Part shown: piece by piece, positions 1,568-24,218 of the stretch
Position numbering within the stretch: position 1 is the stretch's first letter
Layout: every line of letters begins with the position of its first letter
Notes under the pieces: model-generated
What the model saw: only the letters and a program-made list of their open reading frames with translations
Told to the model about the DNA's origin: nothing
Database searches by the model: none
DNA from: an uncultured Ignavibacteriota bacterium
GTDB taxonomy: Bacteria; Bacteroidota; Ignavibacteria; UBA10030; UBA8401
Length of the DNA: 64,000 nucleotides
Reading direction: 5' to 3'
Assembly (NCBI GenBank): GCA_903884005.1
Contig: CAISDA010000079.1
Span: forward strand, 1-64,000
Translations under genes and position numbers: made by a program

Positions 1568-4500
1568 TTACCGCGTGGCTGACGATTCGGCGGGAACTGG
1601 CAACGCCGATGCTCCTGCAGCAAAGCCCGATTGTTTGAGATACTTCCAGTTCTCGAGGGCAGTTTCATTCGTTGGATCGAGTGTAATGACCCGCGAGAGA
1701 AAATCGGCTGCCTCCGGATACTTTTCCTTCATAATGGCAGCAGCGGCAAGGTCATTCAGTGCATGGATGTCATCAGGATTCCGCGCGACCATCGCGGTAA
1801 GGATCTCGACAGCCTCCGCGATGTTGTTCTCACCAAGGAAACGCTCCGCTGTGCCGAGCATGGAATCGACTTGATCCACCCTCTCATAGCGTCGAATCGG
1901 GTTGTTGTTCAACACGGCAATTCTTTGTTTCATCACGTCATATGCATGGTCCCACGTCCATGCCGCATGGACATGGTCATGCGCCCGGCGGCCCAAGGCA
2001 GTCATCTCCGGTGTGTGACCCGCAGCATAGAGCATCTTTGTCTTGAGATCAATCAGAGATGGTTCAAGCACCCAAGGATTGACCGGTGTGTCGAACACAC
2101 CCACCTTTTTTTCCTCGAATATTGTTTTCCGGGCATCGATCAATACACTGTTCTCCGCCGTGCAGAAGTCGAGACAGGCCCCACCGTTGGATACGATCAC
2201 GGGAGTCCCACAAGCCATTGCCTCGAGAATGGGCAGTCCGAACCCTTCTCCGCGATATGGGTGCACGAGTACATCGCATGCACGGTAAAGTCCGGCGAGC
2301 TTCCGATCACTCAGCATCGTGTCTATGTATTCGATGACGGGCGCGTTCTTCTGTTTTCGAATCTCGGCAATTCGCTCCCTGCAATTTTGTCCCTTGTAGA
2401 ATGAATCACCGCCCATATCCTTGATCACAAGGCACACGTCATCTTTTTTCGTGAACGCCTGCGTATAGGCATCGAGCAAAATATCGATGCCCTTGCGATA
2501 GATCGTTCCACCCACAAACAGAAACTTAAATTTTTTCTTCGTCTTCAGTGCATAGGGTTTTGCCTTCACGTTGAATATCGTCGGATCGAATCCGTTCGGC
2601 ACAACGAACACCCGCTCGGCAGGGACGCCTGAATCGATGTAGACATTGCGCACGTACGAGCTGGGTACCCAAGCCTCGTCGACCTGCGTGGAAAACACAT
2701 TCACCCACTCTGTCGGCAGTGCACCGAATTCCCACGGCTGAATCACAACCCAGCGCCCATGCTCCGGTGCGGAGAGGTTCGGAGGCCACTGATGACGTAC
2801 ATGGATATCGGCCTCGCCGATCTCCTTGCCGATGAACTGCCGCAATGCCGCCGCCGGGTCGTTGGCGTCGGGCGAATAGGTGTCGGTTTCGTAGGGTATC
2901 AGCGACAGGTTCATTTCATCCTTCGCCAGGCGCACGCACATTTCCCGATTAATGAGCGCGAGCGAATGCTTCACAAATTGCGTGCCCTCCCAGATGAGTT
3001 TCATCTTCCCCACACGCGGCACACCGCCTGCGCCCGGGAGCCCCGCTGCTTTTTCGGAACCCGCTTTTATCGAATCGACAGTCTGTACTGCGTGAACAGA
3101 TGCCGTTCCGCTCTGTTCGATTTGCCGCAGTCGTTGAAGGATGGTCCCGCCAACGGTTGTGACGTTATATTTTTCAGCGATGTGCCGTTTAGCCGCGACT
3201 CCCTTTTCCTTTGCTTCGTCCCGATGCGCATATACGCGGCGAATGAGCTGCTTCAAATGTGAACAGGAAGGTTCCGCCCACCGATGGCCGATGTAGACTG
3301 GGATCTCATTGCCTGTAATTGTCACCAGAGACTCCACATCGATGAGGTACGAATTCTCGTTGTTCATGAATTCCGTATTGCCGCTCCAATTGGTGCCGAT
3401 CACGGGAAGGCCGAACGCCATCGCTTCCATCTGAGGCCTTCCCCATCCTTCTCCCCGTGCGGGAAGAACGAATGCATCGACCGCCTTATACAGACGGAGC
3501 ATATCGTTGAACGGCAATTGACTCGTCATCAGTTCAAACCGGGGCAGCCGCGAGGTCTTATACCCATGCTTGCGAATTAATCCGTTTATTTTTTCCGCTA
3601 TCAGTGCTTTTGTATCCCCGTCATAGTCCGAGAGCAAATGTGTCCGGAGATATAAACAAACGTCGTCTGAATTCGTGAATTCTTCAAAATATGCCCGAAG
3701 CAGTACATCCCATCCCTTCCGGTTCGTCCATTCGAACATGGACAAAAAATTATATCCCGCTTTATTGGGCAGCTCGAGGGGTTGTATTCCCTCCGGATCG
3801 AAGAGATCGGTGTCGATGCTGCCGGGGATAATATGGATCTTTCCCTCTTTCACTCCCGATTGAGCGAATGTGTCCTTATTGAATCGGCTTGGCACCCACA
3901 CTTCGTCCATGTCGTTGCATTTTTGCACCCAGTCCGGCGGAATTCTGTCTGTCTCGAACATCGTTCGGCCAATGCTGCGAAACACGCCCGGCACCGGCAT
4001 GAAATGATGCGCAGGCTTGTGCTGAATCAAAATTGTATTTTTATTCACCGACATGGGGGCGACCCAGTCCTGCGGCGGAATTTTGTGCAGCCGGAAGAGA
4101 ACTTCCTTCCATCGCACCGGCATGTTATCGATGAACGCCTGAGAGAATAATTGATTCTGATGCCGAATCGTAAGGTCGATTAGCGGATCCAAACCGAGTA
4201 TAAAACTAATCGCCTCGCTTGCGTACCCGCTCGGATTGAATATCGGGGCCGTCCAGACGATGTCATTCTTCAATTGTGCACGGGTGCCGGAAACCGCAGC
4301 ATGCACTGTTGCCGCTTCGGCATTTCCCGGAGTTGCTTCCGTTTTTGGTCGAACCGGTTCCGGTGCGCCGTGCTCTATGCCGAGCATAGACTCCCACACA
4401 TCGATGGTTTTCATCGCTGTACGTGCCCATGAGAATTTTGCCGCCTGTTCGGTTCCTTTGACGCGCACTATATCCCTTCGTTTCGGATTCTTCAGGAGCG

Positions 4501-7500
4501 ACAGCATCGCCGCGGAAACCCCAGCCAAATCATCCGGACGAAAAAGCAGCGCTGCATCGCCGGCTACTTCCGGAATGGAAGTTGCATTCGAGGCGATCAC
4601 AGGACATCGATGTGCCATCGCTTCAAGCACAGGGAATCCGAATCCCTCGGCCTTCGAAAGAAACAGCACACTCACGGCTCTCTCATATAAAGCGTTGAGT
4701 TCATTGCGTTCAATGAATCCGGTAAAAATGATATCCTTGGCCTTTTTCTTCTCGAATTCGTCGGCATAGGCTTTCAAGGTGTGATCTCGTTCACCGACGA
4801 CGACCAACTGGCATGCACTTTGTTCATGACAGAGAACGAATGCTTCCACCGCTCCCAAAAAATTTTTATGCGGATCCAACGCCCCGACATGAAGGAAAAA
4901 CGGTTTGGTGATCGAATACTTCTGCAACACACTGAAATCTGCAGGCACTGTCGACGTATTGACACCCGCGTGGATCGTGACCATTCGCGCTTCCGGAACT
5001 TTCATCATTTCCGTCACATCACGTTTTGTAAATTCGGAAATCGTCAGAAGCCGGCAGTCCGATTCCATGTATTGGTGGAGTCGACGCACGTAGAGTGATT
5101 TCGATTGTTCATCCATTGAATTCCAATATATCCTCAGCGGACAAAGATCGAAAAACGTTATCGTCGTCGTGGGATGAGGAAGCACGCGCAGGGGAGCATC
5201 GAAACCGGCGCCCATATTCATCGGATCGGGAATATGCATGAGGTGAACGATATCCTTATGCCGGTTCATGATCCGTTTATAGACGACGTTCGCATTCTGC
5301 ATCATCGGAGCAAGTGCCGCGCAGGGAACAGATTCCTCCCCATACAGAATGAAACGCCATTGCGGACGAAGCCGAAATACTTCCATGAGATGGTATTTCG
5401 AATATTGTCCTATTCCCCTGGCCACCGATGCCGAATAAAAAAATGTCCGGGCATCGATGCCGATGGTGACCTCATTGCTTGCGGCAGGCTGCCGGACGAT
5501 AGCCGTGCCCTGAGCAGCCATCGCGGATAATTGTGTAATTTCTTTTTCCCAGCGATCGAAAAACTTCCTGCCCGATGCAGCCAGCATCGATCCCAATTTG
5601 TTTCCATCTGTTGACGACTGGCTTTCGAAGTGAATGATGGTCGATGCCGGTTCATACACTACCGTCTTTCCCACCCGGCGTGTTTTGAAGCACAGGTCGA
5701 TATCTTCGAAATACATACCGTACGTTTCATCAAACCCCTGTACCGAAATAAATAATCCTTTTGAGATGCCCAGGCATGCCCCAGTCACCGCGGTCATCGT
5801 GGCAGCCATGTTCGCATCCGGATGGCTTTCGGACTGCCGGCGTAATCGGTGCATGGGCCAGAGCGGGTACGGACTCTCCGGGACTTTTACAAATTCAATA
5901 CCGCAGTGCTGAATAGTCCTATCGGGGTAAAGCAACTTCGCTCCGACAATGCCAACCGTAGTATCGGCCCGCAATCGGTGAACCAGCGGCGACAGCCATC
6001 CGGCCAGAACCTGTGTATCGTTGTTCAGGAAGACAAGGTACGTTCCCCGCGCGATGGCCGCGCCGGCGTTATTCGCCTTGGCGAAGCCCTCATTCGTCGT
6101 GTTTGTTATCACACGCAGATCCGGGCGTTGCTTCATTTCACCGGCGAGAAGCCGTGCCGTTTCGTCAATAGACGCATTATCGATGACGATCACTTCAAAC
6201 GACAGGCCGGTCCCCGTCACCCGATAGATCGACTCGATGCAATTTTTGGTCAACTCCGATTTATTATACACCGGTATGATGATCGATACATCGACAGCGT
6301 GGTCGTGCGCATGCACCCCCAGCTGTTTTCGCATTCCGGCCACGTCCGCATCGGAAGGGGCAACTGCCTCAAGTCTCGACAACAGTAATACTGCGGCCTG
6401 TTTGTCGCCAAAGCGTACTGCAACAGTCAAGAGACCTTTAAGAGCGGCGACATCATCGGGCGTCTGCCTCAGCACAGCTTCGTACCCGTTCACTATTGGG
6501 GCCATATCCGATTGCGACATCAGCATCACCCTCAGTGCTTTCGCGAATACGGAGAGTCTCATTTCCGTTACGTTATATGGCAGCAACGACGACTGATCAT
6601 GGAGAAACGATTTCGTAGCACTCGCAATATCATCATATTGGACATGCCAGCCGTTTGCACGCTCCTCTGCCGCGAACCGGGCGATACGTTCCTGATAGAC
6701 TTTTTTCCTGCCATGCTGTTCGCTGCGAATTGGATAGTGGCGAAGAATGAAATTGATCGGAAATAGTTTTCGATCGGGGAACTGGGCGTTATGCCCGCCG
6801 GTTGAAACAAGGTCAACTCTCGTCCCGGTTTTTTTCCACGCTTTAATTTGATTGCTGTCGAACCATCCTCCCGGTTCGTATCGCTTTAAATACTCTCGTA
6901 CGTCCTGACCGCCGACAAATGTATTATCGACCGGTTTGAAATTCAGTAATTCGAAATTAACGGCATTGTATCCGAGGGCATCGACAATTTCGAAGCCTTC
7001 GCGTAAAGAAGTCTGAACGAACGGGCTTTCCCGAAATTCGTCGGCATCTGCATGAATGAACCAGTCGGCTTCCAGTGTTTGTGCGAGTTCCTCTTTCCTT
7101 CGAAGCAGGTCTTTCCACACATATTCCTTCTTGTTACGCTCAGGATAACCGCAATCCTCTGGAAATCGTTCGATATGCAGGAGTCCCTTGCCAAGCCAGG
7201 GGGAGGCCTGCTTGACCGTATCATCATTCGAATTGTTGTCCAGGAGATAGACGTCCACGCCATTGGCGATGAGATCCCCAATGACGTGATGAATGACATC
7301 TCCCTCGTTATACGCCGAGATAATCGCGACGACGATGAACGATGTGCCTGAAGGAGAATTCGTGGGCTCCGGCGCAGAGACAGCGCTGTCCGCTACCCTC
7401 GGTGCTCCATCGCCGATGAGCCGGCGAGCGGCTTCCACGGCGCTCTTCGGATAGAGGGACGGATGAAACAACACGATCTGTGCTTTCAACTCCTGATCAC

Positions 7501-10500
7501 GTTCCAGGGCGCTTGTCAGCATGCTCACCTCTTTCACGCGATAGCGGAGGAGGACTTCAGGCAGGCGCCGGAATGCATACCCTGCCTCTGCACCGCTGAT
7601 CCAAAATTCCCAGTCCTCATACCCCCGGCAATTCCGCTTATACCCGCCGACAGCTTTCCACATCGCTTTTTTGTAGAGAGAACAATAGGCGAAATAATTT
7701 TGCCGGTAGAGTGTGTTGCGGTCAAAATCCAGGGTGCGGACAATTTTCTTTTCAACATTAAAATATTCCTGGTCCGTGTAGACGACATCACAGTTGGTCC
7801 TGCACATTTCCCGGTATGTCGATTCGAGCATCAACGGATTGAGAATGTCGTCCGCGTCCAACGGCAAAATGTATTCGCCGTGCGCAACCGCGATACCATT
7901 ATTTCGTGAAATTGCCGGCTGCCCTGAATTCGGCTGATTGATCAAAGAAATATTGCGGTGTGGATATTGGGCAATGATCGCTTCAGCAACTTCTTTTGTA
8001 TTATCCGTGCTGCCGTCATTGACGATAATGAGTTCCCAGTTGGCATAGGTTTGATTGACTACGCTCTCCACGGCCTCCGGCAAGTACAACGCATAGTTGT
8101 AACATGGCATCACAACCGATATCAAAGGAAGAGTTGTAGCCGACATGTTTTTGAGATTTCTTGACACGATTTTTTCGAGTTGGGGGTTAGACAGCATGCC
8201 CTTTTGCCGATGATAGCGATGGAGCAGTTGTACTGGCTCCAGGCATTCGGCGGCAATTTCGTGAACCAATGCGCTGGCGGTCTCTTTTTCCATTTTATGC
8301 AAAGCAGCGGCAAGTTGTTCCATCTGACTTTTAGCCGAGTCGACGTCAATGTTCCACTGTTCAACGATGTGCGCATTGATGTGATCTACTGAAAATGCGC
8401 CGGGCTGTCGAAACCCCAGTGTCACCGCTCCATATCCCCGCGTTTGGTGAATTCTGCAAAAAGATTCAACCGAAAGCGCGTGATCATGCCATGCGATGCA
8501 GGACGCCTCATACAGCACCTGATACCCGGCCTGCTCCAGCCGATATCCGAATTCAATATCTTCTGCCGCCGGCCCGCTGAATTCCTCGTCAAATCCGCCT
8601 ATCTCTTCGGCAGCCCTTTTTAACAATGAGATATTGCATGTATAAAAATGATTATAGTCATACAATAATCCGGAAACCATGTTCGGATAATCGAATACGA
8701 TATCTTTCGTCGCCGCAAGATGGCCTATAAATGTCCGTGTGTACTTGGGGAGATACTGGAACGCGCCTAACACGGAAATTTTTTCTCCGCGGTGTTTCAT
8801 CTGAAGGTCGTAATGAATTTTCACTGCATTCGGTTCCAGTATCGCATCATCATTGAGAATCAATATGTACTCTCCTGATGATGTGCGGATGCCCATATTT
8901 CGAGCAGCTGCGGGGCCTTTATTCTCCTGCCGGAGATAGATGAGACTGAACGGAACGCTCATGTTCCGTACGACATCACGAGTGTTATCCGTCGAACCAT
9001 CATCACAGACGATCACTTCGCATCGATCCGGCGGAAAGGTCTGACCGGCTATGGCATGGATGCATTTTTTCAAAATTTCACATCTGTTGTATGTCGGGAT
9101 AATAATGGAGAACGTAAGCAAAGGCTCTTCCTTGTCCGGAAAACGATCATGAAGATATTGGTTCTGAACATATTGAGACGGCACCCGTATGTCGTCAGGC
9201 ATCGCCAATACGGCCGGTTGCGGCTTGCCTTCGATCAATGAAATAAAAACCGGAAGTGACGATTTCCAACGGAATGATTGTTCCCAATGTCTTTTCCCAA
9301 GTTCACCGAGTGTGGTTATTATGTCGTTATGTGAAAGCAGGAAGTCGATCGCCATAGGGAAATCACTGACCGGAGCAATGATGCCCCCCGCTTCGTCTTT
9401 TACGGCATTGCATGACGGTGTCGCAATCCATGGAGTACCATAACTCATAGCCTGCAAGACAACCAAGGGACCGGCACTTTCCGCTTTTGAAGGTACCAAG
9501 AGTATGTCCGCATCACGGATTGCCGCCGAAGCCGCCGCCCTGGGTAGCCCGCCGACGATCTTCACTCGGTCATCCTGGCGTGCAAGTGAAACAATTTTTT
9601 CAAAATATGCCCCCTCTACATCGGTCGCATTACCAATGATCGCTAACTGCCACTTCCCCGGATATGTTTTTAATACAGAAAGAAGTCCGTCGTGATTTTT
9701 CACAGGCCAGAAATTTCCCACCATCACAAACAACGCATCTGTTGTGCTGAATCCATATTCAGTTCTGAAATCGATCGGATCGGCATCTTGTTCAATGGCA
9801 TGCGGAATGAACGTAGTTGGTATTCCCGCTCCCGATGTAAATGATGCATCGTATCCATTTTCGGAAACGGTAATGACCCGATCAACCGATCGCAGCAGGC
9901 GAATGATCTTGGCCCCGAAATCGTTCAGTGCCCACTCGGCCATGTTGCCGGCGCTGATACTCGGCATCATTATTATTTGAGGGTGTTGGCCCGGCAGATC
10001 TGCCAATCCCATCCCGATCCAATTATCGGGCTGTGCCAACGCGATGACGCTTGCGTATCCCCCGGTGCATAACAGGGTTCGGAATTTTTCGATCGCGCTG
10101 TTCCCCTGGCTCCCGGTGATATCCTTGGGGATCGCAAAGTCATGAATCGTCATTCCGGCGCAGCAATGTGACGTTCTTTCTGGCATTGCCCTGCAGGCCA
10201 CGTCGATATGATACCCTTTTCCCTGTAATTGACGGCCGAGGTCTTCAATATACACTTCTACACCGCCGACTGAGGGCCAGAAATAATCACACACCAGCAG
10301 TACTTTTTTTGGGCTTCCTTCCAGAAAAGGGATTGAATCACATGGTATTTCGAACGACTTCCACGCCGTGGCGGGTCTTTTACCCCACGCCGACGGCCAA
10401 TGAGCATCCCGTGCCCGTTCCGATTCATTCCAATTCAATGCCCCGTCGGCGAGAGAGATGCTCGCCTGATTTTCATAATAGATTCCCAGAACTTCAGGCA

Positions 10501-13500
10501 GATGCAGCATGTTCTCGTTACGCATTGCCAACTTGAGCCAGAATTCATAATCACCGGCTGAACGATAGCTGTCGTCAAAGTAGCCATAGGTGTCATGTAA
10601 TTTTTTCCGCCACATGGGATGCGGTCCCAGGAAGCAGACATCGAAGAGCTGTCGCGTATCGCTCTCCGGCCAGGCAAATCGTCCTTTGGGGGAACATTGA
10701 CTCCATGTATCCGTTTCATTTATTGTGACAACACTATCCGCATAGACGATGCTGATGTCAGGCCGGCACGACAACGTCTCGGCAAGAATTCGAAATGCAT
10801 CCGGCGAATGCCTGTCATCAGTATTCGCATTTGTAACATAGATTCCGGACGATGCCCGGATCCCGCGGTTCCAAGCCTGATACACCGTTTCCCGGTGTTT
10901 GGTTTTCACATACGTGATGTTCGGGTACCGAGTCTGGTACTCTCGAATAATGACATCTTCGTTTTGTTGCGAACCGGAATTTACGACAACAATTTCAAGG
11001 AGCCCTTTCTTCGACATCGTCTGCTGCAGGAGGTCGTCAAGGCAGCCCCGCATAAATTTTTCCGCATTATACACCGAGACAATCGCGGAGACAATATATC
11101 CGCCCGCCGCGGGTTCCGTGTCGGCGCGTTTCACAAATTGGCCCACTGTCTCTCGCGTCGCACCCTTATGTGCCGATGATTCCTCATCAGCGGTGGGGCC
11201 GTCGGCAGGTTTTCGGGCAGTCGCCCAGATCCATGGGGAGGGATTCTCAATGTCGATGGAACAATACCCCTGCTGAATGAGGAGACCGCGCAATTCTTCA
11301 GAGGTATAGCTGTTGCCGAAAAACGCATATTGCTTGTCCGGTGTTCCCTCTTCATCGAATCCTCCGAGGTTCGGGTTGCTTTTATCATGCACCTGCAGTC
11401 GAAAATATCCTCCCGGCTTCAGCACACGCATTACTTCGTCGAAATAACTCTTGACGACGGACACCGAACGAATATGCTGGAAGACGATCGTTGAAAAGAC
11501 AAGATCGTAATGGTGCGCCGGCAGCGGATGAAGGCTGAACCCGTCATTGAGCAGCACGGTGCCGTTGTTGCGGCCATCGGCAAGGTACTCGTGGGCAAAT
11601 TCAATCATTTTTTCGGAGATGTCGACACCGTCGACTTCTGCAAATTTTTCTCGCAGTGGTTTAATGACGCGTCCTACTCCGCATCCTATTTCAAGGATCT
11701 TCCATTGGGGATCAAGAGGAAGCGACTTCGTGATTTCTTCTGCCGAGCCGATGGCCGATGCGTACCAGCTTTTCATTTGCTCTTCAAACGGCATGGAATT
11801 GATCTCATCGCTGGTAAAGACTCGCCCGAACATTGCTTCATGCAACGTGCCGACGTTCCAAAATTCTTTTTCCTTCGACAAAAATGCCGTATTAACAACC
11901 GATACGCCATCAGCGCAGTTCACCGCCGCATTCCCATTCTTTCCTGTGTTCGTTCCGGTGACTTGAGCCTTCAACACCTGCTGAAGACAAATTAAATTAT
12001 CGAGCGCGATTTCATTTGCCGGGTCCAGCACAATAACCTGTTGCAACAGCTCAATTCCCACGGAATAATTGTTTTCGGAAATGTGAATAACCGCCAGGTT
12101 GTTCAGCGCATCGATGTTGCGGGGATCTTTTTCGAGCAGCCGGGTGAATATTATTTTTGCTGCGGCAAAATTTCCATTTTGAATTTCGAGTTCACCCGTC
12201 ACGAGCGCATCGGTCGACATCATGGTATTTCCGGATTTAGTGGCAATAATTGGCGGTGCCGGGAGCAGAGTCTTGTTCTGCGATTGCTCGAACAAGAGGC
12301 GTTCACGATCGAGTACGCATTTCGCTTCCTGATGGTATCGTTCAAGGAACTCTTGTGTCTTCTGGTTCGGCTGGCGGCGGAATCCAGCTAGCAGAGCATC
12401 TGTCGTATGCAATTGAGCGTAACGGAAAAACCTTGTCCATAATTCGAGATCACCGGCGTAGTGAAATTCCCGGCTCAAAAAACCTCCGGCTTGCTTCCAC
12501 AGCGTTCTCCGCCAGAATGTCCCCTCCTGCTGAATAAACGGATTTGAGTATTGGTTCAAAAGATATTTTCCCCTGTGCCACAACGGAAGGTAATCGTAGA
12601 CCCATTCCTGTGTTCCATCGGGAGCGAATCCGTTCGGTCTGCCCATGACCCAATCGACTTCCTGACGGGACGAAAAAATGTCGGCAACGGTCTTGAACGC
12701 TCCGGGATGAAATTTATCGTCCGAGTTCAACCACGTCATGACCTCACCCGAGCCCAATGCAAATCCTTCGTTGATGGCGGCATATTGTCCGCCATCAGGT
12801 TTCGACTGCCAGTTTGCGAGAAACGGGGAGTAGCGCCGTATGATGTCGGCGGACCCGTCCGTGCTTCCCCCATCCATGATCACATATTCCAAATTTGAAT
12901 ATTGTTGATCGAGCACGGATTCGATGCATTCTTCAAGAAATTCAGCCTGATTAAACGAGGGCGTCACAACGGATATCCTGGGCTGCGATTCGTCCTGAGG
13001 AGTAAGAAATTTTTTGTAATAGCTCCACTGCTTTTTTGTAACGCTATCGTCGCGTGTGTCGGGCTTTTCCCACAGTACATTCCATGACGAGGGTTTACCA
13101 TCGGCGTATTCGTTTACGTTCGGGGCGCCTTTCCAAAAGGCGTTGAAATACTGCTCCGAAACGACATAGAGTTCCGCATCGTTGACGAGGCGTTCGAATG
13201 GAACGCGTGACGGTACGCCGGTAAAATATTCGGACATGAAGGGAGCAAAATCGTTTGTCCAGCACGACCTGCGTTCCGAGATAAGTATATCAAAAAGGTG
13301 AAGCGATTTTCCGCCGGGTTTCAGAATCCTGTCGATGTCCAGGCACATATTGTGGTAGAGCTGTCCGTTTTTCACTCGGCCATTCGGAACGTGTTCGAGC
13401 GCGGAAATGCTGAAAATGAAATCGAAGTAGTTCTCCGGCAGTTGGTTGTTGAAATTACCGATAAAATCCTTGACCAGACGATAACCCGTGGAATCGACTT

Positions 13501-15124
13501 GCACAGGTCCGTTTCCATTCCCCTCGAGCTTGTCCAAATTCCAGCACTCATGCGAATTCTTATAGAACTGAAGAATTCGCGAGTCACCTCCACCGATATC
13601 GAGAATCCGTGATCCCAGAGGGATGTAGTTTTTGATAAACGTGAATACAAGCAAGTCCTGGTAGGCTTTCAGGTCGGCGTACATCGGATCGACCTTCGCG
13701 TGGAATAGTTCGCGATCACTCTTTCCGAAGAGAGTGAAATGATGTTTTTTCGCGTACGCGAAATCCTGAAATTTTTCTGCCACGCACACACGTTTCGCCG
13801 TTCGTTCATCGGCCGCTTGCGGATGGCGATTGCCTATAACACCCTGAGTGGGCGTAGTGGATTTGCCTTCTTGACTCTGTCTATGATGTTTTCCATCGCC
13901 GGCTTTCCATTGGTCGTTTGAATTCTGATTCATTGCCGGGTGCGCCGGTTGGCCGGACGCAGTCCCGATGCACACACGAATCTTCGTCATCAACGGGGCT
14001 ATTCTTGCATCAAGATCGAGTTCTTTTTCGAAGAATGATATGCAGTTATTCTTCCATGCCGAAAGATCTTGCCTGGAAATAGAGGCGAGCACCGAAGGTA
14101 TTTCGTGTAACTGTCCCACGACGCGGCCAAGATTCTCTTTCCGCGTGTGGCCGCCCATCTCTCCGCCATCGTTGATAAGAATTGGAACTCCATGCTGCAG
14201 GTACGTCGCCGTTTTGCCTGATGCCATGCCGATATATTTCAGATTGTTCCCGGCATTAATATCATGTTCCTGGGGGATGTAGAAACTCAATCCGAGATCG
14301 GCGGCAAAAAGCAATTCATGTATCTGAGAAAACGGCAGCGCCGCGAACGGAGACAAGAAAATATTCTTCTTTTGTTGTGACGCGATAAACACTTCCAGCT
14401 TTTTATTATACTGCGCATAACGGTGGTGGAGTACGAGCGCCCAATCATCGGGCCAGAGATGCACTTCGGCCAAGAGTTCGTTAATTCCGGACCATACCGA
14501 AGTGACGCCTCCCATATACAGCGCGATCTTTCGATCTTTCGATAATCCCAGTGCATCATGGAGAATGCTGGTCTGTGCACCGCGTCTCGCGGCACGTCCG
14601 GCAACGGGTATGTCAACGATGCGCTCAAGAGGAATGCCGTTTTCCCTTGAGAGATGCAATGAACGTACGCGGTCCTGGCACACGGCAAATGAGACATTGT
14701 GCGAAGCGGCAACAAATTCTGCAATATTTTTTTGCCCGGTTTCTTCTGCAAAGAGAAGCTCGTACGATATCAGACCATAGGGGACGCCAAAGTGGCGGGC
14801 AATGACCGACGCTTCCACAATGCCGCGATCGATGCCAATAACCAGATCGCACGGTTGTATATTGGACTCTATGAACGCATGGACCGCAAGTTGATCGTGG
14901 TGCACTTCGGTCGGAAGGACCGCCGTGACATTCTTCAGTATTTTATGTTCCGGAGTGAAGAAGAATCGTGAACGAGGGCAGGGAGCATACTGTTGGACGT
15001 CGTTCAACTTGGGGGAATACATGTGAACATCATACCCTTCGGCGCATAGTATTTCAACGATGCCGCTAAGGTTGGGGTTATTATTCAGATTCCCTTCGGG
15101 ATGTATGATCATAATACGCGGCAT
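1568..15124 (-). CDS. Giant multi-domain glycosyltransferase/methyltransferase protein (~4,518 aa)
   Basis: One uninterrupted frame. Residues below count from the upstream ATG at 15163; I prefer ATG 15124 (codon 14), which overlaps the preceding stop as TGATG. ATG 15133 behind GAAGGA is the alternative. Domains in order: GT-B-like (14-410), linker, SAM methyltransferase with LDIGGGDSR (about 516), GT2 (726-954), TPRs (988-1053), second methyltransferase with LEIGCGVGR (1151), GT2 (1354-1594), GT4 (1618-1990), three GT2 (starting about 2014, 2344, 2606), TPR-like segment, GT2 (2955-3200), three GT4-type (3230, 3631, 4051), C-terminal TPRs (4433-4508). That makes six GT-A and five GT-B modules. 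GT2 modules show DDGSTDN or NDGSTDN and DD/DAD metal motifs; GT4 modules show E-G-F/W-G-x-P-x-x-E-A-M. No membrane segment or signal peptide, so it should act in the cytoplasm, presumably building a complex O-glycan or repeat unit. Exact sugars are unknown. Confidence 0.85.
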   Translation of the reverse strand: MPRIMIIHPEGNLNNNPNLSGIVEILCAEGYDVHMYSPKLNDVQQYAPCPRSRFFFTPEHKILKNVTAVLPTEVHHDQLAVHAFIESNIQPCDLVIGIDRGIVEASVIARHFGVPYGLISYELLFAEETGQKNIAEFVAASHNVSFAVCQDRVRSLHLSRENGIPLERIVDIPVAGRAARRGAQTSILHDALGLSKDRKIALYMGGVTSVWSGINELLAEVHLWPDDWALVLHHRYAQYNKKLEVFIASQQKKNIFLSPFAALPFSQIHELLFAADLGLSFYIPQEHDINAGNNLKYIGMASGKTATYLQHGVPILINDGGEMGGHTRKENLGRVVGQLHEIPSVLASISRQDLSAWKNNCISFFEKELDLDARIAPLMTKIRVCIGTASGQPAHPAMNQNSNDQWKAGDGKHHRQSQEGKSTTPTQGVIGNRHPQAADERTAKRVCVAEKFQDFAYAKKHHFTLFGKSDRELFHAKVDPMYADLKAYQDLLVFTFIKNYIPLGSRILDIGGGDSRILQFYKNSHECWNLDKLEGNGNGPVQVDSTGYRLVKDFIGNFNNQLPENYFDFIFSISALEHVPNGRVKNGQLYHNMCLDIDRILKPGGKSLHLFDILISERRSCWTNDFAPFMSEYFTGVPSRVPFERLVNDAELYVVSEQYFNAFWKGAPNVNEYADGKPSSWNVLWEKPDTRDDSVTKKQWSYYKKFLTPQDESQPRISVVTPSFNQAEFLEECIESVLDQQYSNLEYVIMDGGSTDGSADIIRRYSPFLANWQSKPDGGQYAAINEGFALGSGEVMTWLNSDDKFHPGAFKTVADIFSSRQEVDWVMGRPNGFAPDGTQEWVYDYLPLWHRGKYLLNQYSNPFIQQEGTFWRRTLWKQAGGFLSREFHYAGDLELWTRFFRYAQLHTTDALLAGFRRQPNQKTQEFLERYHQEAKCVLDRERLLFEQSQNKTLLPAPPIIATKSGNTMMSTDALVTGELEIQNGNFAAAKIIFTRLLEKDPRNIDALNNLAVIHISENNYSVGIELLQQVIVLDPANEIALDNLICLQQVLKAQVTGTNTGKNGNAAVNCADGVSVVNTAFLSKEKEFWNVGTLHEAMFGRVFTSDEINSMPFEEQMKSWYASAIGSAEEITKSLPLDPQWKILEIGCGVGRVIKPLREKFAEVDGVDISEKMIEFAHEYLADGRNNGTVLLNDGFSLHPLPAHHYDLVFSTIVFQHIRSVSVVKSYFDEVMRVLKPGGYFRLQVHDKSNPNLGGFDEEGTPDKQYAFFGNSYTSEELRGLLIQQGYCSIDIENPSPWIWATARKPADGPTADEESSAHKGATRETVGQFVKRADTEPAAGGYIVSAIVSVYNAEKFMRGCLDDLLQQTMSKKGLLEIVVVNSGSQQNEDVIIREYQTRYPNITYVKTKHRETVYQAWNRGIRASSGIYVTNANTDDRHSPDAFRILAETLSCRPDISIVYADSVVTINETDTWSQCSPKGRFAWPESDTRQLFDVCFLGPHPMWRKKLHDTYGYFDDSYRSAGDYEFWLKLAMRNENMLHLPEVLGIYYENQASISLADGALNWNESERARDAHWPSAWGKRPATAWKSFEIPCDSIPFLEGSPKKVLLVCDYFWPSVGGVEVYIEDLGRQLQGKGYHIDVACRAMPERTSHCCAGMTIHDFAIPKDITGSQGNSAIEKFRTLLCTGGYASVIALAQPDNWIGMGLADLPGQHPQIIMMPSISAGNMAEWALNDFGAKIIRLLRSVDRVITVSENGYDASFTSGAGIPTTFIPHAIEQDADPIDFRTEYGFSTTDALFVMVGNFWPVKNHDGLLSVLKTYPGKWQLAIIGNATDVEGAYFEKIVSLARQDDRVKIVGGLPRAAASAAIRDADILLVPSKAESAGPLVVLQAMSYGTPWIATPSCNAVKDEAGGIIAPVSDFPMAIDFLLSHNDIITTLGELGKRHWEQSFRWKSSLPVFISLIEGKPQPAVLAMPDDIRVPSQYVQNQYLHDRFPDKEEPLLTFSIIIPTYNRCEILKKCIHAIAGQTFPPDRCEVIVCDDGSTDNTRDVVRNMSVPFSLIYLRQENKGPAAARNMGIRTSSGEYILILNDDAILEPNAVKIHYDLQMKHRGEKISVLGAFQYLPKYTRTFIGHLAATKDIVFDYPNMVSGLLYDYNHFYTCNISLLKRAAEEIGGFDEEFSGPAAEDIEFGYRLEQAGYQVLYEASCIAWHDHALSVESFCRIHQTRGYGAVTLGFRQPGAFSVDHINAHIVEQWNIDVDSAKSQMEQLAAALHKMEKETASALVHEIAAECLEPVQLLHRYHRQKGMLSNPQLEKIVSRNLKNMSATTLPLISVVMPCYNYALYLPEAVESVVNQTYANWELIIVNDGSTDNTKEVAEAIIAQYPHRNISLINQPNSGQPAISRNNGIAVAHGEYILPLDADDILNPLMLESTYREMCRTNCDVVYTDQEYFNVEKKIVRTLDFDRNTLYRQNYFAYCSLYKKAMWKAVGGYKRNCRGYEDWEFWISGAEAGYAFRRLPEVLLRYRVKEVSMLTSALERDQELKAQIVLFHPSLYPKSAVEAARRLIGDGAPRVADSAVSAPEPTNSPSGTSFIVVAIISAYNEGDVIHHVIGDLIANGVDVYLLDNNSNDDTVKQASPWLGKGLLHIERFPEDCGYPERNKKEYVWKDLLRRKEELAQTLEADWFIHADADEFRESPFVQTSLREGFEIVDALGYNAVNFELLNFKPVDNTFVGGQDVREYLKRYEPGGWFDSNQIKAWKKTGTRVDLVSTGGHNAQFPDRKLFPINFILRHYPIRSEQHGRKKVYQERIARFAAEERANGWHVQYDDIASATKSFLHDQSSLLPYNVTEMRLSVFAKALRVMLMSQSDMAPIVNGYEAVLRQTPDDVAALKGLLTVAVRFGDKQAAVLLLSRLEAVAPSDADVAGMRKQLGVHAHDHAVDVSIIIPVYNKSELTKNCIESIYRVTGTGLSFEVIVIDNASIDETARLLAGEMKQRPDLRVITNTTNEGFAKANNAGAAIARGTYLVFLNNDTQVLAGWLSPLVHRLRADTTVGIVGAKLLYPDRTIQHCGIEFVKVPESPYPLWPMHRLRRQSESHPDANMAATMTAVTGACLGISKGLFISVQGFDETYGMYFEDIDLCFKTRRVGKTVVYEPASTIIHFESQSSTDGNKLGSMLAASGRKFFDRWEKEITQLSAMAAQGTAIVRQPAASNEVTIGIDARTFFYSASVARGIGQYSKYHLMEVFRLRPQWRFILYGEESVPCAALAPMMQNANVVYKRIMNRHKDIVHLMHIPDPMNMGAGFDAPLRVLPHPTTTITFFDLCPLRIYWNSMDEQSKSLYVRRLHQYMESDCRLLTISEFTKRDVTEMMKVPEARMVTIHAGVNTSTVPADFSVLQKYSITKPFFLHVGALDPHKNFLGAVEAFVLCHEQSACQLVVVGERDHTLKAYADEFEKKKAKDIIFTGFIERNELNALYERAVSVLFLSKAEGFGFPVLEAMAHRCPVIASNATSIPEVAGDAALLFRPDDLAGVSAAMLSLLKNPKRRDIVRVKGTEQAAKFSWARTAMKTIDVWESMLGIEHGAPEPVRPKTEATPGNAEAATVHAAVSGTRAQLKNDIVWTAPIFNPSGYASEAISFILGLDPLIDLTIRHQNQLFSQAFIDNMPVRWKEVLFRLHKIPPQDWVAPMSVNKNTILIQHKPAHHFMPVPGVFRSIGRTMFETDRIPPDWVQKCNDMDEVWVPSRFNKDTFAQSGVKEGKIHIIPGSIDTDLFDPEGIQPLELPNKAGYNFLSMFEWTNRKGWDVLLRAYFEEFTNSDDVCLYLRTHLLSDYDGDTKALIAEKINGLIRKHGYKTSRLPRFELMTSQLPFNDMLRLYKAVDAFVLPARGEGWGRPQMEAMAFGLPVIGTNWSGNTEFMNNENSYLIDVESLVTITGNEIPVYIGHRWAEPSCSHLKQLIRRVYAHRDEAKEKGVAAKRHIAEKYNVTTVGGTILQRLRQIEQSGTASVHAVQTVDSIKAGSEKAAGLPGAGGVPRVGKMKLIWEGTQFVKHSLALINREMCVRLAKDEMNLSLIPYETDTYSPDANDPAAALRQFIGKEIGEADIHVRHQWPPNLSAPEHGRWVVIQPWEFGALPTEWVNVFSTQVDEAWVPSSYVRNVYIDSGVPAERVFVVPNGFDPTIFNVKAKPYALKTKKKFKFLFVGGTIYRKGIDILLDAYTQAFTKKDDVCLVIKDMGGDSFYKGQNCRERIAEIRKQKNAPVIEYIDTMLSDRKLAGLYRACDVLVHPYRGEGFGLPILEAMACGTPVIVSNGGACLDFCTAENSVLIDARKTIFEEKKVGVFDTPVNPWVLEPSLIDLKTKMLYAAGHTPEMTALGRRAHDHVHAAWTWDHAYDVMKQRIAVLNNNPIRRYERVDQVDSMLGTAERFLGENNIAEAVEILTAMVARNPDDIHALNDLAAAAIMKEKYPEAADFLSRVITLDPTNETALENWKYLKQSGFAAGASALPVPAESSATR

Positions 15125-15318
15125 CAGAAACATCCCCCATCCTTCGACCGTTGCGATACACATTGTGCTTTCCCGTCTGTGAGCACTGTTGTCTCAGGCT
15201 GATACTTCCGTGTCATTATCTCGATATGTGTAATGAACTCCGGCATATCGTCTCTGCGGATACGTGTAGAACTATGCCGGTCTTTCCAGACGATCTGTCC
15301 AACCTGCTCATTATTCAT
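15124..15318 (-). CDS. Small hypothetical ORF translationally coupled to the giant glycosyltransferase (64 aa)
   Basis: The ATG at 15318 lies 10 nt after the stop of the WbsX-like gene and is preceded by AGGA with 5-nt spacing. The ORF ends in TGA at 15126-15124, whose A is the first base of the giant protein's ATG (TGATG). Tight spacing on both sides is what a real operon member would show, and ribosomes ending here could reinitiate on the giant gene. The 64-residue product is hydrophilic and basic, ends SKDGGCF, has no signal peptide or membrane segment, and matches no family I know. It could be a small accessory protein, a leader/coupling ORF, or chance. Confidence 0.4.
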   Translation of the reverse strand: MNNEQVGQIVWKDRHSSTRIRRDDMPEFITHIEIMTRKYQPETTVLTDGKAQCVSQRSKDGGCF

Positions 15319-15328
15319 GATGTTCCTG

Positions 15329-16744
15329 TTATCGAGATAATATATTTTTGCCGTAGACACTGTTCCGCACTGCGTCAAGGTAACCGTAGCCATGAAGCAG
15401 ATCGGGTTCCAGATGGTTGCCTTCAGCCCATTCATTCCACGCTTTAATGAAAACAAAACGTGATTCCGCATTCGGATTCTTCGCTGCTTTCGCCACCGCA
15501 TCGTTCATCATACGTTCAAACTGTTCGGGAGTGGATCCATGAAGTACGATGCCGTTCTTGCCGCTGCGCGGCGTGTTGTCCCAATTGGGGAACACAAGCG
15601 GATGTTCATTATGTGCCAACGGATATCGTTGCAGGTATTGTACGAGTTCATCATACGAAACTACTTTCGGGACGCCTTCGGCAGACATTGGCTCGACATT
15701 GAGAGCAGGGGCATTCATGTCATAAAACGGCGCATTATCGACGCAGCTTTGGCAACCGAATTCTTCCGGAGAGCGTGTCATATGGGCGATAAAATGAAAT
15801 CCTGCAAGTCCTTCACTTTCGGCCAGTTGTTGCCAATATTCAGTGAAGATGAACGGATTCGGTATACTCTGCGGGGAATAAATCAGAAATACCAATTTAC
15901 CGTTCACCTTTAAGTATCGTTTGTCGCGGAACGCCGGCAAGAGCGATTCGAAGTGTGCCTGATAATCCTTCAGTCCCGGATACGTCTGCTCGATCAAAAT
16001 CTTATTGGGCGCTCCATGCCAAATGCCCGACCATGTTTGGTTCGCCCAACCCAGACAGAACGGAAATTCGGGCTGGCCTGATTCGACGACTTCCATAAAA
16101 GGACGTTCCAGGAGCCGATGGCCTGCAAACCAGTAATGCCAGTAACAGAATGCTTCAATGCCGTACGCGCGGGCAAGGTCCGCCTGGGCAATTCGTGTTT
16201 CGGACACCCGCAGATCATAATATCCCAGCTCTCCCGGCAGCTGCGGCTGGACATGACCATGGTATAGCGGTTTTGCCTTGCCGACATTGCTCCACTCTGT
16301 AAATCCTTTTCCCCACCATTGGTCGTTTTCGGGTATGGGGTGATATTGCGGCAGATAGAATGCGATCACGCGAGCCTTCGGCACAGGCGGCCTGTCGAGT
16401 GTATTCTCCGCTGGTTTTCGCGGCTTCATGCCGAGCAGGTCATCCTGAATTTCGCGGACGATCCTTCTCAATACTTCGGAGACAGGCTCCCAATCGGGAA
16501 CGGACTCGAGAATCGTGAGGGTGTTCCCGCAGAGTTCCGCCTCTTCGGCGCTCGGTGCACCGAGCATGGCCATGCGGATGTGATGATCGGCGCAGGGTGC
16601 TCTCCCGTCGCGCACGCTGAGCAGTTCGTTCAAATGCGCCTGAAACCGGCGCAACGGAGCACTCGGTTTCGGCATTGCCGAAATATTTTTTATGAATCCG
16701 GCCAATTGCGCACGCACGGGATCGTTGTTGGTATGGTTATTCAT
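15329..16744 (-). CDS. WbsX-like protein with GH99-like domain
   Basis: A 471-residue protein. Residues 1-115 are a poorly conserved lead-in; from about residue 122 it carries the WbsX/glycoside hydrolase 99-like domain: AFYLPQYHPIPEND, WWGKGFTEW and the FCYWHYWF block, followed by CLGWANQTW and a C-terminal KAWNEWAEG. These (beta/alpha)8-barrel proteins are common in O-antigen and capsule clusters and are often annotated as glycosyltransferases or lipopolysaccharide biosynthesis proteins; a demonstrated activity is lacking for most. It leads the second glycan unit and is followed after 10 nt by the 64-codon ORF and then by the giant glycosyltransferase. There is no signal peptide, so if it hydrolyses or trims glycans it does so in the cytoplasm. 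A 341-bp gap upstream suggests its own promoter. Confidence 0.8.
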   Translation of the reverse strand: MNNHTNNDPVRAQLAGFIKNISAMPKPSAPLRRFQAHLNELLSVRDGRAPCADHHIRMAMLGAPSAEEAELCGNTLTILESVPDWEPVSEVLRRIVREIQDDLLGMKPRKPAENTLDRPPVPKARVIAFYLPQYHPIPENDQWWGKGFTEWSNVGKAKPLYHGHVQPQLPGELGYYDLRVSETRIAQADLARAYGIEAFCYWHYWFAGHRLLERPFMEVVESGQPEFPFCLGWANQTWSGIWHGAPNKILIEQTYPGLKDYQAHFESLLPAFRDKRYLKVNGKLVFLIYSPQSIPNPFIFTEYWQQLAESEGLAGFHFIAHMTRSPEEFGCQSCVDNAPFYDMNAPALNVEPMSAEGVPKVVSYDELVQYLQRYPLAHNEHPLVFPNWDNTPRSGKNGIVLHGSTPEQFERMMNDAVAKAAKNPNAESRFVFIKAWNEWAEGNHLEPDLLHGYGYLDAVRNSVYGKNILSR

Positions 16745-21806: not shown

Positions 21807-22508
21807 TCAGGACCCGCGTTTGGCCAGGTCTTTGTATGTTACATCCGTACCATACGTGGACAGAATATTTTGTATGTTCACCGCATCCTCTGCCGTGTCG
21901 ATGGTGCACCGTACTTCACTCGCTTCAATGCAGTGCGGAATTTCCAACAACTTTATGTTATACTTGTTATGTGTGTAAAAAATCGGAGTAACATGTTCCT
22001 TTTCGTAATCCGTAAGGCCATCGATATCTGCGTTTAAAAATGTGTCTGTTTTTACCAACTCGCAAAATAATCCGAATTTATGTTGAATGGCGGGCATGCC
22101 GTCACGGCTCATAAAGGAGACATAGTCGTATTGTTCATGCGTGGATTCAACACACTCGATCATTTGTTCGATAAAGATCGGCTCGATGAGGGGGTTGTCT
22201 GCACAGATCCTGAAAAAATAGTCAGCAGGCGCGCGTGCCGCTTTAAGAAAGTCATAAAATCGTTTAAAGACATCGTGTTCATCCCCTCTGAAGCATTGTA
22301 TTCCGTGTGTTTGTACATAGTCCGCCAATCTATCGTCGATGCTGTTTGTTGTTGTTAAGACAATAATAGTAGCATGCACATTCCGTACTTGCCGGATGCG
22401 TTTGATGATGATGTCCAATAATGATTCGCCGGGCAGCAGATCCAGCAACACTTTATTCGGCAATCGTGTAGAGCCCAATCGGGCCTGCAGTAAAAAGAGA
22501 TATTCCAT
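21807..22508 (-). CDS. SpsF-like cytidylyltransferase (CMP-sugar synthase family)
   Basis: A 233-residue nucleotidyltransferase. The N-terminus shows the family signature LQARLGSTRLPNKVL (residues 6-20), then a DxxIDD/RLADY region, FRGDEHDVFKRFYD and ICADNPLI, where the Asp is the expected metal ligand. SpsF and NeuA/KdsB-type enzymes couple CTP to a sugar, often a nonulosonic acid. The start is the ATG at 22508, one base after the HAD gene stop. Its place immediately after NeuB-like and HAD genes argues for CMP activation of the synthase product. A 167-bp gap with no clear gene separates it from the next gene. Confidence 0.8.
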   Translation of the reverse strand: MEYLFLLQARLGSTRLPNKVLLDLLPGESLLDIIIKRIRQVRNVHATIIVLTTTNSIDDRLADYVQTHGIQCFRGDEHDVFKRFYDFLKAARAPADYFFRICADNPLIEPIFIEQMIECVESTHEQYDYVSFMSRDGMPAIQHKFGLFCELVKTDTFLNADIDGLTDYEKEHVTPIFYTHNKYNIKLLEIPHCIEASEVRCTIDTAEDAVNIQNILSTYGTDVTYKDLAKRGS

Positions 22509-22509
22509 G

Positions 22510-23178
22510 CTAAATGATGTTTGTAAGTTCGGCAAGTCCAGCGATCGTATAGTCCGTGTGTATACGTCGTCCGAGATAATTGTTATACTCTACCGTCGCA
22601 ATTCCTATTGCTGCTGCGCCTTCAAGTTCATCCCGGTCGTGGCCAACAAATAGTACTTCGGAAGGTTTCATATCCAGTCGTGCAAGAGCATGGAAAAAAA
22701 TTTTGGGATCAGGTTTTGTCGCCCCTACATCTTTTGATGTGACGATAAGATCGATGAATTGATCGATGAAATGCTTTGACAGGATGGTGTTGCGTACTTC
22801 CTCTTCGCCGCTTTCGTTGTCGGTGATAATGACGTTCTTCATGGCCTTTGAGTGAACATAGATCAGGGTTTCTTTCACGCCGTCAAATAACACGCGGTTG
22901 TCTTCGAATTCCTTTTTTTTCGCAAATGAGCGCGCAGTAAATGCGGCCCTGTCCGGTACTCCTGCGTGAAGGAGAAATTTAGTGAATGCAGATTCATACG
23001 TCTCCAGCGATTCAGTCGTATAGACTTCCTCAAGAAACGAATCGTATTCGTCATAGAATTCCGCAAAACTTCCGACGAAACAGCCCAACGTGCGCAATTC
23101 TGTATAATTCCATTCCCTCCAATAATGGGCTTCAAAAAAAATGTCCCCCAGATCGTATAGAACCGCTTTGCACGTCAT
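22510..23178 (-). CDS. HAD-superfamily hydrolase
   Basis: A 222-residue HAD phosphatase-like protein. Motif I is YDLGD at residues 8-12, so the usual second Asp is Gly, as in the YihX-type branch; motif II is IITDNESG (Thr), motif III KPDP, and motif IV VGHDRDE. The ATG overlaps the TGA of the NeuB-like gene (ATGA), implying coupled translation. In nonulosonate pathways a phosphatase removes the 9-phosphate made when the synthase uses a 6-phosphate substrate, so this is a candidate Neu9P-phosphatase-like enzyme. That role is inferred from context only. Confidence 0.8.
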   Translation of the reverse strand: MTCKAVLYDLGDIFFEAHYWREWNYTELRTLGCFVGSFAEFYDEYDSFLEEVYTTESLETYESAFTKFLLHAGVPDRAAFTARSFAKKKEFEDNRVLFDGVKETLIYVHSKAMKNVIITDNESGEEEVRNTILSKHFIDQFIDLIVTSKDVGATKPDPKIFFHALARLDMKPSEVLFVGHDRDELEGAAAIGIATVEYNNYLGRRIHTDYTIAGLAELTNII

Positions 23179-24218
23179 GATGCGACCATAGCGGGAAATA
23201 TGAGTTCCGATTCCTGGATATTGCCATTGGCTCGTTTACCGACGATCTGATATCGTTCGGACCATTTCAATCCCGTGCCAGGGCTCAGAAGGACCAAGTC
23301 TTCTTCCCGGATAATTTCGCCTTCGGTGATGTTTTTTTTTGATGCGACCGAACGCTCGAGTTTGTGTTTTGCCGATGTTGCACCGTCTGATATGAAGAGA
23401 TCATTCTCTCCCATGGCTAGTTCGGTCAATCGGATATCGCGGATCAACCGATTAACGCCATCGGGCCCGAGCGAACCCGCCTGGTCTGTTCCTTTCATTC
23501 GGCGATCGATCGTAACGTGCTTTTCTATGATCTCGGCGCCGAGCGCAACGGCACAGATGGCGGCTGAAATTCCGATCGTATGATCTGAGTACCCGATTCG
23601 ATATTGAGGATAATGTTCCATTAAAAAGGAGATCGAATTCAAGTTTATATTATACGGGTGTGTCGGATATTCTGAAACACAATGGAGGATTGAAATATTA
23701 GTATGATATTTTGAGACGATTTCTATTGCCGTCTCCAATTCTGCCTTATCGCTCATGCCTGTGGACATGATGATTGGAATTTTTGTTTCAGCTAATGCAG
23801 AAAGCAGCGGCAGATTCGTCAGATCCCTGCTTGCCACTTTTATATGATCGGGAGTAAATAATTTCAATATGCTCAGCGTCCCCGGAGCGCACAGTGTTTC
23901 AACCAAATCAAGATTTTTTTCCTTTACGTACTTGTAGATTTCATAATGTTCCTCGTCATCCAATTCCAGATATTCGCGATGTTGGCCATACGTTTTTCCA
24001 AAAGAATTGGGGCTGTCGTATACTTTCTCCATTTCACTGCGAGTGAGTTCCTGTTTCAAGTCCCGTTTTTGAAGTTTAATTGCATCCATGGGCTGCAACT
24101 TCAATCCGAACATTTGCTCGTGGACGGGTCTGGAAACCAAATCAACAATTAATTTTGCAATATCAACCGAACCGTTATGGTTCTGACCGATTTCTCCGAT
24201 GATGTATGTTGGTTTCAT
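23175..24218 (-). CDS. neuB: NeuB-family nonulosonic acid synthase
   Basis: A 347-residue sialic/legionaminic/pseudaminic acid synthase family protein. These condense phosphoenolpyruvate with a six-carbon sugar in a TIM barrel. Visible landmarks: IGEIGQNHNG at residues 7-16, AIKLQKRD, PIIMSTGMS, LHCVSEYPT, GYSDHTIG and IIEKHVTIDR, then a C-terminal SAF (antifreeze-like) domain with SVASKKNITEGE and REEDL. The length is typical. The sequence cannot say which nonulosonate is made, and no epimerase, aminotransferase or NeuC is present in the window, so the sugar precursor must come from elsewhere. It lies 31 bp after the large fusion gene and overlaps the HAD gene. Confidence 0.85.
   Translation of the reverse strand: MKPTYIIGEIGQNHNGSVDIAKLIVDLVSRPVHEQMFGLKLQPMDAIKLQKRDLKQELTRSEMEKVYDSPNSFGKTYGQHREYLELDDEEHYEIYKYVKEKNLDLVETLCAPGTLSILKLFTPDHIKVASRDLTNLPLLSALAETKIPIIMSTGMSDKAELETAIEIVSKYHTNISILHCVSEYPTHPYNINLNSISFLMEHYPQYRIGYSDHTIGISAAICAVALGAEIIEKHVTIDRRMKGTDQAGSLGPDGVNRLIRDIRLTELAMGENDLFISDGATSAKHKLERSVASKKNITEGEIIREEDLVLLSPGTGLKWSERYQIVGKRANGNIQESELIFPAMVAS

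Follow-up and report, generated by a model that had tools for sequence, protein, structure and literature searches.

A 4,531-residue protein with eleven glycosyltransferase domains and two methyltransferases in an uncultured Ignavibacteriota bacterium, a probable flagellin glycosylation enzyme

We analysed a stretch of 64,000 nucleotides (the window) at the start of contig C79 from an uncultured Ignavibacteriota bacterium. An unbroken frame of 4,531 codons lies on the minus strand, running from an ATG at 15163 to position 1568. The first-pass annotation had placed it at 1568–15124 and gave no strand. The frame is real and free of stops. Its start is at 15163, and position 15124 corresponds to an in-frame ATG at residue 14; across 1568–15163 the plus strand is riddled with stops. 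Domains were called segment by segment with Pfam and with our own HMMs, built iteratively from fetched loci. Sixteen units were identified, namely five GT-B/GT4, six GT2, two methyltransferase, and three TPR. From the N-terminus, the order is GT-B, methyltransferase, GT2, TPR, methyltransferase, GT2, GT4, and GT2, followed in the second half by GT2, GT2, TPR, GT2, three consecutive GT4 domains, and TPR. The features of the locus are as follows.

1–112, no strand: window start; insertion sequence end, identical to C21:1501–1612, where it lies beside transposase-like ORFs
107–263, no strand: contig overlap, 155/157 nt matching the end of contig C88 (186944–187100) in the same orientation
568–1500, minus: next gene downstream of the giant gene (310 aa), with weak GT90 similarity under the Pfam cut-off
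1568–15163, minus: the whole giant ORF (4,531 aa); other in-frame starts at residues 11 and 14
13964–15136, minus: domain 1 (residues 10–400), atypical GT-B; no Pfam hit, no EX7E
12989–13726, minus: SAM methyltransferase a (480–725); motif LDIGGGDS
12281–12985, minus: GT2 domain a (727–961); SDD and GDLE motifs
11966–12220, minus: TPR a (982–1066); 39% identity to TPR c
11351–11740, minus: SAM methyltransferase b (1142–1271); motif LEIGCGVG, Methyltransf_11 E 5e-20
10376–11101, minus: GT2 domain b (1355–1596); TDD and GDYE motifs
9194–10309, minus: GT4 domain b (1619–1990); altered motif ESAGPLVVLQ
8426–9118, minus: GT2 domain c (2016–2246); NDD and EDIE motifs
7442–8131, minus: GT2 domain d (2345–2574); DADD and EDWE motifs, chondroitin-synthase-like
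6638–7342, minus: GT2 domain e (2608–2842); Glyco_tranf_2_4-like, DAD motif, no ED motif by pattern search
6320–6553, minus: TPR b (2871–2948); weak
5531–6298, minus: GT2 domain f (2956–3211); NND and EDID motifs, part of the TPR-GT2 core conserved across the family
4346–5446, minus: GT4 domain c (3240–3606); EX7E
3083–4270, minus: GT4 domain d (3632–4027); EX7E, kept in the homologues that have this domain
1877–3007, minus: GT4 domain e (4053–4429); EX7E unchanged in all 7 homologues aligned, the module that marks the class-wide family
1622–1873, minus: TPR c (4431–4514); helical hairpins in the AF2 model
15329–16744, minus: WbsX-type glycosyltransferase gene, upstream
21807–22535, minus: CMP-sugar synthetase (cytidylyltransferase) gene, upstream
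22510–23178, minus: HAD phosphatase gene, upstream
23175–24218, minus: NeuB-family nonulosonate synthase gene, upstream
24250–28005, minus: LIC12162-family transferase fused to a methyltransferase (1,251 aa), a further fused glycan enzyme, clustered with the NeuB-family gene

The five GT-B, six GT2, two methyltransferase, and at least two TPR segments described in the first-pass annotation were all recovered. The DxD-type motif is present in all six GT2 domains and the ED-type motif in five; GT2e alone fell slightly under the Pfam cut-off (22.0 vs 23.3 bits). Among the five GT-B/GT4 domains, EX7E is present in three (c, d, and e), altered in GT4b, and absent from domain 1. A sister-species homologue of GT4b retains both acidic residues (E..E) at the position where the giant protein reads ESAGPLVVLQ. 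SAM motif I is kept in both methyltransferases. Loss of catalytic residues from most domains, named beforehand as fatal to the annotation, did not materialise, since the motifs are retained in most of them. Pfam reported no MptE-like/Maf catalytic domain (PF01973), no TagF-like glycerol- or polyol-phosphate transferase domain, and no PKS/NRPS-like carrier domain in the scanned segments of the protein. Comparison of the internal copies gave 22–33% identity between GT2 domains, 31% between GT4d and GT4e, and 39% between TPRa and TPRc; the modules appear to be mostly old and diverged.

Domain 1 was silent in Pfam (residues 1–440 scanned), and its GT-B assignment comes solely from a low-confidence AF2 model (pLDDT 55), which was used for fold class only. 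With very few exceptions, Foldseek matched this model to GT-B enzymes or to epimerases with the GT-B fold (MshA, BshA, GlgM; E 1e-8), and a sequence search of the Protein Data Bank with domain 1 returned nothing. The C-terminal 895 residues were modelled at pLDDT 81 as two complete GT-B folds with a disordered linker between them and terminal TPR hairpins; the pTM of 0.48 leaves the relative placement of these folds unfixed. The best Foldseek match of this GT4d-GT4e-TPRc end was the capsule multienzyme Cps3D (8qoy).

The giant ORF contains no N. Using a codon-usage score trained on neighbouring genes, we found that the annotated frame scored highest among the six in 74 of 75 segments of 90 codons, with all inter-domain linkers included. 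Ala, Pro, Thr, Ser, and Gly are abundant in the linkers, which have the appearance of ordinary inter-domain linkers. The continuous in-frame codon bias makes an assembly join inside the ORF very unlikely. Separate genes run together by assembly error had been put forward as a way for the annotation to fail; the continuous frame and the fused versions of 1,600–3,664 aa in independent genomes speak against it. The contig does break near 1–260, where the insertion sequence end at its terminus accounts for the break, and nothing else that would favour an assembly or frame artefact was found. Fused relatives occur across many independent assemblies, including that of the single-contig genome G578, whose member has 1,710 aa, and no frame switch was detected. 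We rejected the artefact on the six-frame scan and consider it scarcely credible. The earlier remark that the protein has no membrane anchor also holds, as no 19-residue segment exceeds a Kyte-Doolittle mean of 1.6.

The genes around the giant ORF include those for a NeuB-family synthase, a HAD phosphatase, and a cytidylyltransferase. Among the neighbours at 568–28005, we found no Wzx, Wzy, ABC exporter, or sugar-1-phosphate transferase. The WbsX and LIC12162 families take their names from O-antigen loci. Between 17086 and 21672, genes for an SDR, an AMP-ligase-like protein, a DUF4910 protein, and an AAC(3)-like acetyltransferase lie amid the sugar genes; their products may synthesise an uncommon acyl group or attach it. 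The window also encodes a Por_Secre_tail (T9SS) protein, suggestive of Bacteroidota, and, at 54867–57854, a 995-aa protein combining a response-regulator-like stretch with a pyruvate phosphate dikinase ATP-binding domain.

The flagellins of this genome are encoded on contig C88. That contig carries, on one strand shared with the giant gene, a secreted T9SS-type protein, a 1,019-aa protein, a TPR protein, two GT2-TPR proteins, two fliC, fliS, and fliD. In a sister species, one contig runs from the multi-GT gene to a secreted protein, and a second runs from a secreted protein through TPR and two GT2-TPR genes to fliC. On the basis of the 157-nt overlap and this matching two-contig order, we infer, with good support, that C79 joins C88, which would place the giant gene ~14 kb upstream of fliC. 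Against the join, the overlap is short and includes one real mismatch, and a paralogous gene copy could equally produce it. The insertion sequence end adjoins the N-terminal part of a secreted-protein gene with a near-identical start on C88, which would mean that the population contains strain variants or that the gene exists twice. Further motility genes, identified by eye (motAB, flgK, flgL, flgH, flgI, and others), lie on C79 beyond 64 kb.

In at least ten genomes of the order (G003, G007, G013, G017, G030, G035, G036, G077, G085, and G089), we observed the full or near-full order multi-GT, GT2-TPR, one or more fliC, fliS, and fliD. The orthologous C-terminal core lies 2–3 kb from fliC in G030 and G035; in both genomes the giant gene leads into a GT2-TPR gene of ~530 aa, behind which lie two flagellins and fliD. 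Downstream of the flagellins in G017 (L149:9421–17805, contig G017:C105), a frame of 2,795 aa gave no GT, methyltransferase, or TPR match with the HMMs used. Across the class, flagellin was adjacent at three of the 20 loci inspected and non-adjacent at 17, yet all 20 genomes have flagellin; the giant gene therefore travels with flagella but is not always beside them.

The C-terminal module was carried by 72 of 391 class genomes (E ≤ 1e-60, most via GT4e-TPR). Flagellin was present in 71 of these carriers and in 100 of the 319 non-carriers (Fisher 5e-29, uncorrected for relatedness; the carriers span 40 genera, and related genomes are not independent). The sole carrier lacking flagellin (G055) has a FliG-like ORF beside its giant-type gene. 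The 17 non-adjacent loci had led us to weigh whether the family serves any surface glycan, and this co-occurrence restored the flagellar reading.

In known systems, flagellin is glycosylated in the cytoplasm, ahead of export. The giant protein is probably a soluble, cytoplasmic multi-glycosyltransferase of this kind, docked through its TPRs and building a long, methylated O-glycan on flagellin before export. One or more TPR segments would hold flagellin or the partner GT2-TPR proteins encoded beside the flagellins, while the eleven tethered GT domains would add sugars stepwise from nucleotide-sugar donors. The upstream NeuB-family, HAD, and cytidylyltransferase genes would supply a CMP-nonulosonate donor, and the two methyltransferases would methylate or cap chain sugars, as that of WsaE caps rhamnan (PMC2943079). 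Not all eleven GT domains need be active, given the altered GT4b motif and the atypical domain 1. In this scheme we infer that flagellin is the acceptor and that the TPRs dock, as well as which sugars are used, in what order they are transferred, and what activity each domain has. Gene order in the relatives and the co-occurrence point to flagellin as the acceptor, as do the C79–C88 join, which ties the gene to the flagellins of its own genome, and the absence of Wzx, Wzy, an exporter, and a sugar-1-phosphate transferase among the neighbours. Two further arguments come from known systems: TPR regions recruit flagellin in FlmG (PMC7591256) and, reportedly, in Maf-1 (PMC13317340), and nonulosonates, for which NeuB-family genes lie upstream, are common flagellin sugars (PMC13317340). 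The proposal in the first-pass annotation that one protein builds an oligosaccharide with TPRs as docking sites fits this evidence; it missed the probable acceptor, flagellin being favoured over a lipid-linked repeat unit. A strict correspondence between the order of domains and the order of sugars, as on an assembly line, would be speculative, and modules are exchanged between relatives.

A close functional comparison is with FlmG of Caulobacter crescentus (596 aa), which likewise combines TPR and GT-B in one soluble protein and has the flagellin acceptor and nonulosonate chemistry proposed here (PMC7591256). FlmG has one GT domain and adds one sugar, whereas the 4,531 aa of the giant protein accommodate eleven GT domains along with two methyltransferases. 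The two share TPR and GT in one polypeptide and a linkage to flagellin, the own-genome part of which comes through the contig join. In Geobacillus (PMC5109656) and Clostridium (PMC13317340), flagellin glycosylation islands place GT2, GT4, methyltransferase, and nonulosonate genes beside flagellin in highly strain-variable sets, and GT2-TPR proteins have been proposed as flagellin transferases in Clostridium (PMC13317340). The Geobacillus island holds up to five GTs as separate genes (PMC5109656); the giant protein has much of such an island in one polypeptide. In Pseudomonas syringae, Fgt1 and associated genes make a flagellin glycan of several sugars, as proposed here, but the trisaccharide is the work of several separate gene products rather than a single giant chain (PMC3927599).

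Large cytoplasmic multi-GT proteins also act on other acceptors. WsaE and WsfC (S-layer glycan, Geobacillus and Paenibacillus) and WbdA (E. coli O8/O9a) are such enzymes on lipid-linked chains, and WsaE joins two GTs and a methyltransferase in one chain (PMC2943079). The giant protein likewise has at least two GT domains and a methyltransferase in one soluble chain. The protein might by analogy build a lipid-linked O-antigen, capsule, or exopolysaccharide unit, or elongate a chain in the manner of WbdA or WsaE, its flagellar linkage being incidental. The WbsX and LIC12162-type transferases of the upstream cluster would suit this role, and so would the match of the C-terminal pair to Cps3D, a capsule enzyme that also bears TPRs (PMC11666461). 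The capsule polymerases Cps3D and Cps7D (PDB 8qoy; PMC11666461) resemble the end of the giant protein in having TPR and two GT-B in one chain, but they contain a TagF-like polyol-phosphate transferase domain, make capsule, carry their TPR on the N-terminal side, and show 11% identity over the alignment. WsaE, WsfC, and WbdA differ in that they unite two or three activities, work on a lipid-linked acceptor, and have a product exported by an ABC transporter, with no TPRs described and no flagellin linkage (PMC2943079). The ABC exporter and initiating sugar-1-phosphate transferase of those systems are missing among the neighbours at 568–28005, as are a flippase and a polymerase. Together with the flagellin co-occurrence and the direct adjacency of fliC, fliS, and fliD in many relatives, this makes a lipid-linked product unlikely, and we rank it below flagellin. 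Counting against flagellin are the 17 non-adjacent loci, the short, mismatch-bearing overlap behind the join, the O-antigen-named neighbour families, and the flagellins themselves, which at 278 aa in this genome are short and an unusual target for so many GTs.

The long frame could also be a record of gene fusions, with a C-terminal core that alone works and otherwise mostly inactive or superfluous domains. The altered GT4b motif would agree with such decay, as would the restriction of domain 1 to this one genome of its family and the fact that relatives get by with three to six GT domains. Dead modules, however, would be expected to accumulate stops or frameshifts, whereas the codon bias is uniform over all 4,531 codons. 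Every GT2 also retains a DxD-type motif and five of six an ED-type motif, three GT4 domains keep EX7E, and both methyltransferases keep SAM motif I, all of which argues against decay; we regard this explanation as quite improbable.

The GT4d-GT4e-TPR region, whole or partial, was found in nine genomes of two families among the 98 genomes of the order; this search for relatives was not exhaustive across all bacteria. These relatives share the C-terminal GT4-GT4-TPR core at 43–72% identity behind different preceding modules, so that the giant protein stands at the far end of a modular family. In G001, of the same genus, equivalents of residues 2590–3205 (53%) are followed directly by those of 4056–4523 (71%), with GT4c and GT4d missing, and G016 has a GT2b-like module ahead of GT4d-GT4e-TPR (65%). 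G035 has a complete 2,807-aa frame with three TPRs, GT2, four GT4, and TPR, and a protein-kinase-like stretch near its N-terminus (L129, G035:C1). Other enzymes are fused into the multi-GT chain elsewhere, with part of an asparagine-synthase domain in G055 (L130, G055:C193) and an RgpF domain in G006 (L125, G006:C75). The next-largest frame with the C-terminal module among the loci fetched from the class has 3,664 aa and six recognised GTs; several frames end at contig ends, so that full lengths may exceed those seen. Domain 1 and the first methyltransferase occur in no other genome of the window's family, and domain 1 has two distant homologues in 395 genomes of the phylum. The relatives manage with three to six GT domains, and the giant protein, with eleven, is the largest example found here.

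Multi-domain glycosyltransferases and TPR-type flagellin glycosyltransferases are already known, but the literature searched offered no precedent for a fusion on this scale or for a class-wide modular family around one. The multi-domain glycosyltransferases described there join two or three activities. No paper joining Ignavibacteria, flagellin, and glycosyltransferase was found, and looking for GT-methyltransferases of very large size in one chain turned up only an unrelated survey of polymorphic toxins. More tentatively, though with some plausibility, the class may hold a family of giant modular flagellin glycosyltransferases with a conserved GT4-TPR end and exchangeable GT2, GT4, methyltransferase, and other modules ahead of it, in which lineages rewrite the flagellar glycan by swapping modules within a gene; such a family would be a glycan counterpart of modular synthases. 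Bacteria usually split the making of a flagellar sugar coat among many separate enzymes. The giant chain and its dozens of shorter, module-shuffled relatives would offer a natural setting in which to ask whether the sequence of a glycan can be encoded by the arrangement of domains in one protein, and they would supply parts for programmable glycan synthesis. The flagellin link makes the proposal testable, as the mass of the flagellin glycan should track the module content of each relative.

A parallel case exists in another phylum: a Deltaproteobacterial MAG encodes a 3,388-aa chain (L003:17096–27259) with a methyltransferase, an MptE-like/Maf domain, five GT2, one GT4, and many TPRs. Within one genus, three species (G035, L121/L122; G030, L126/L127; G043, L128) differ in multi-GT content at the same site, and G043, with the same upstream neighbours as the other two, has several smaller genes and a partial multi-GT frame there. 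This site is a natural experiment on flagellar glycan variation.
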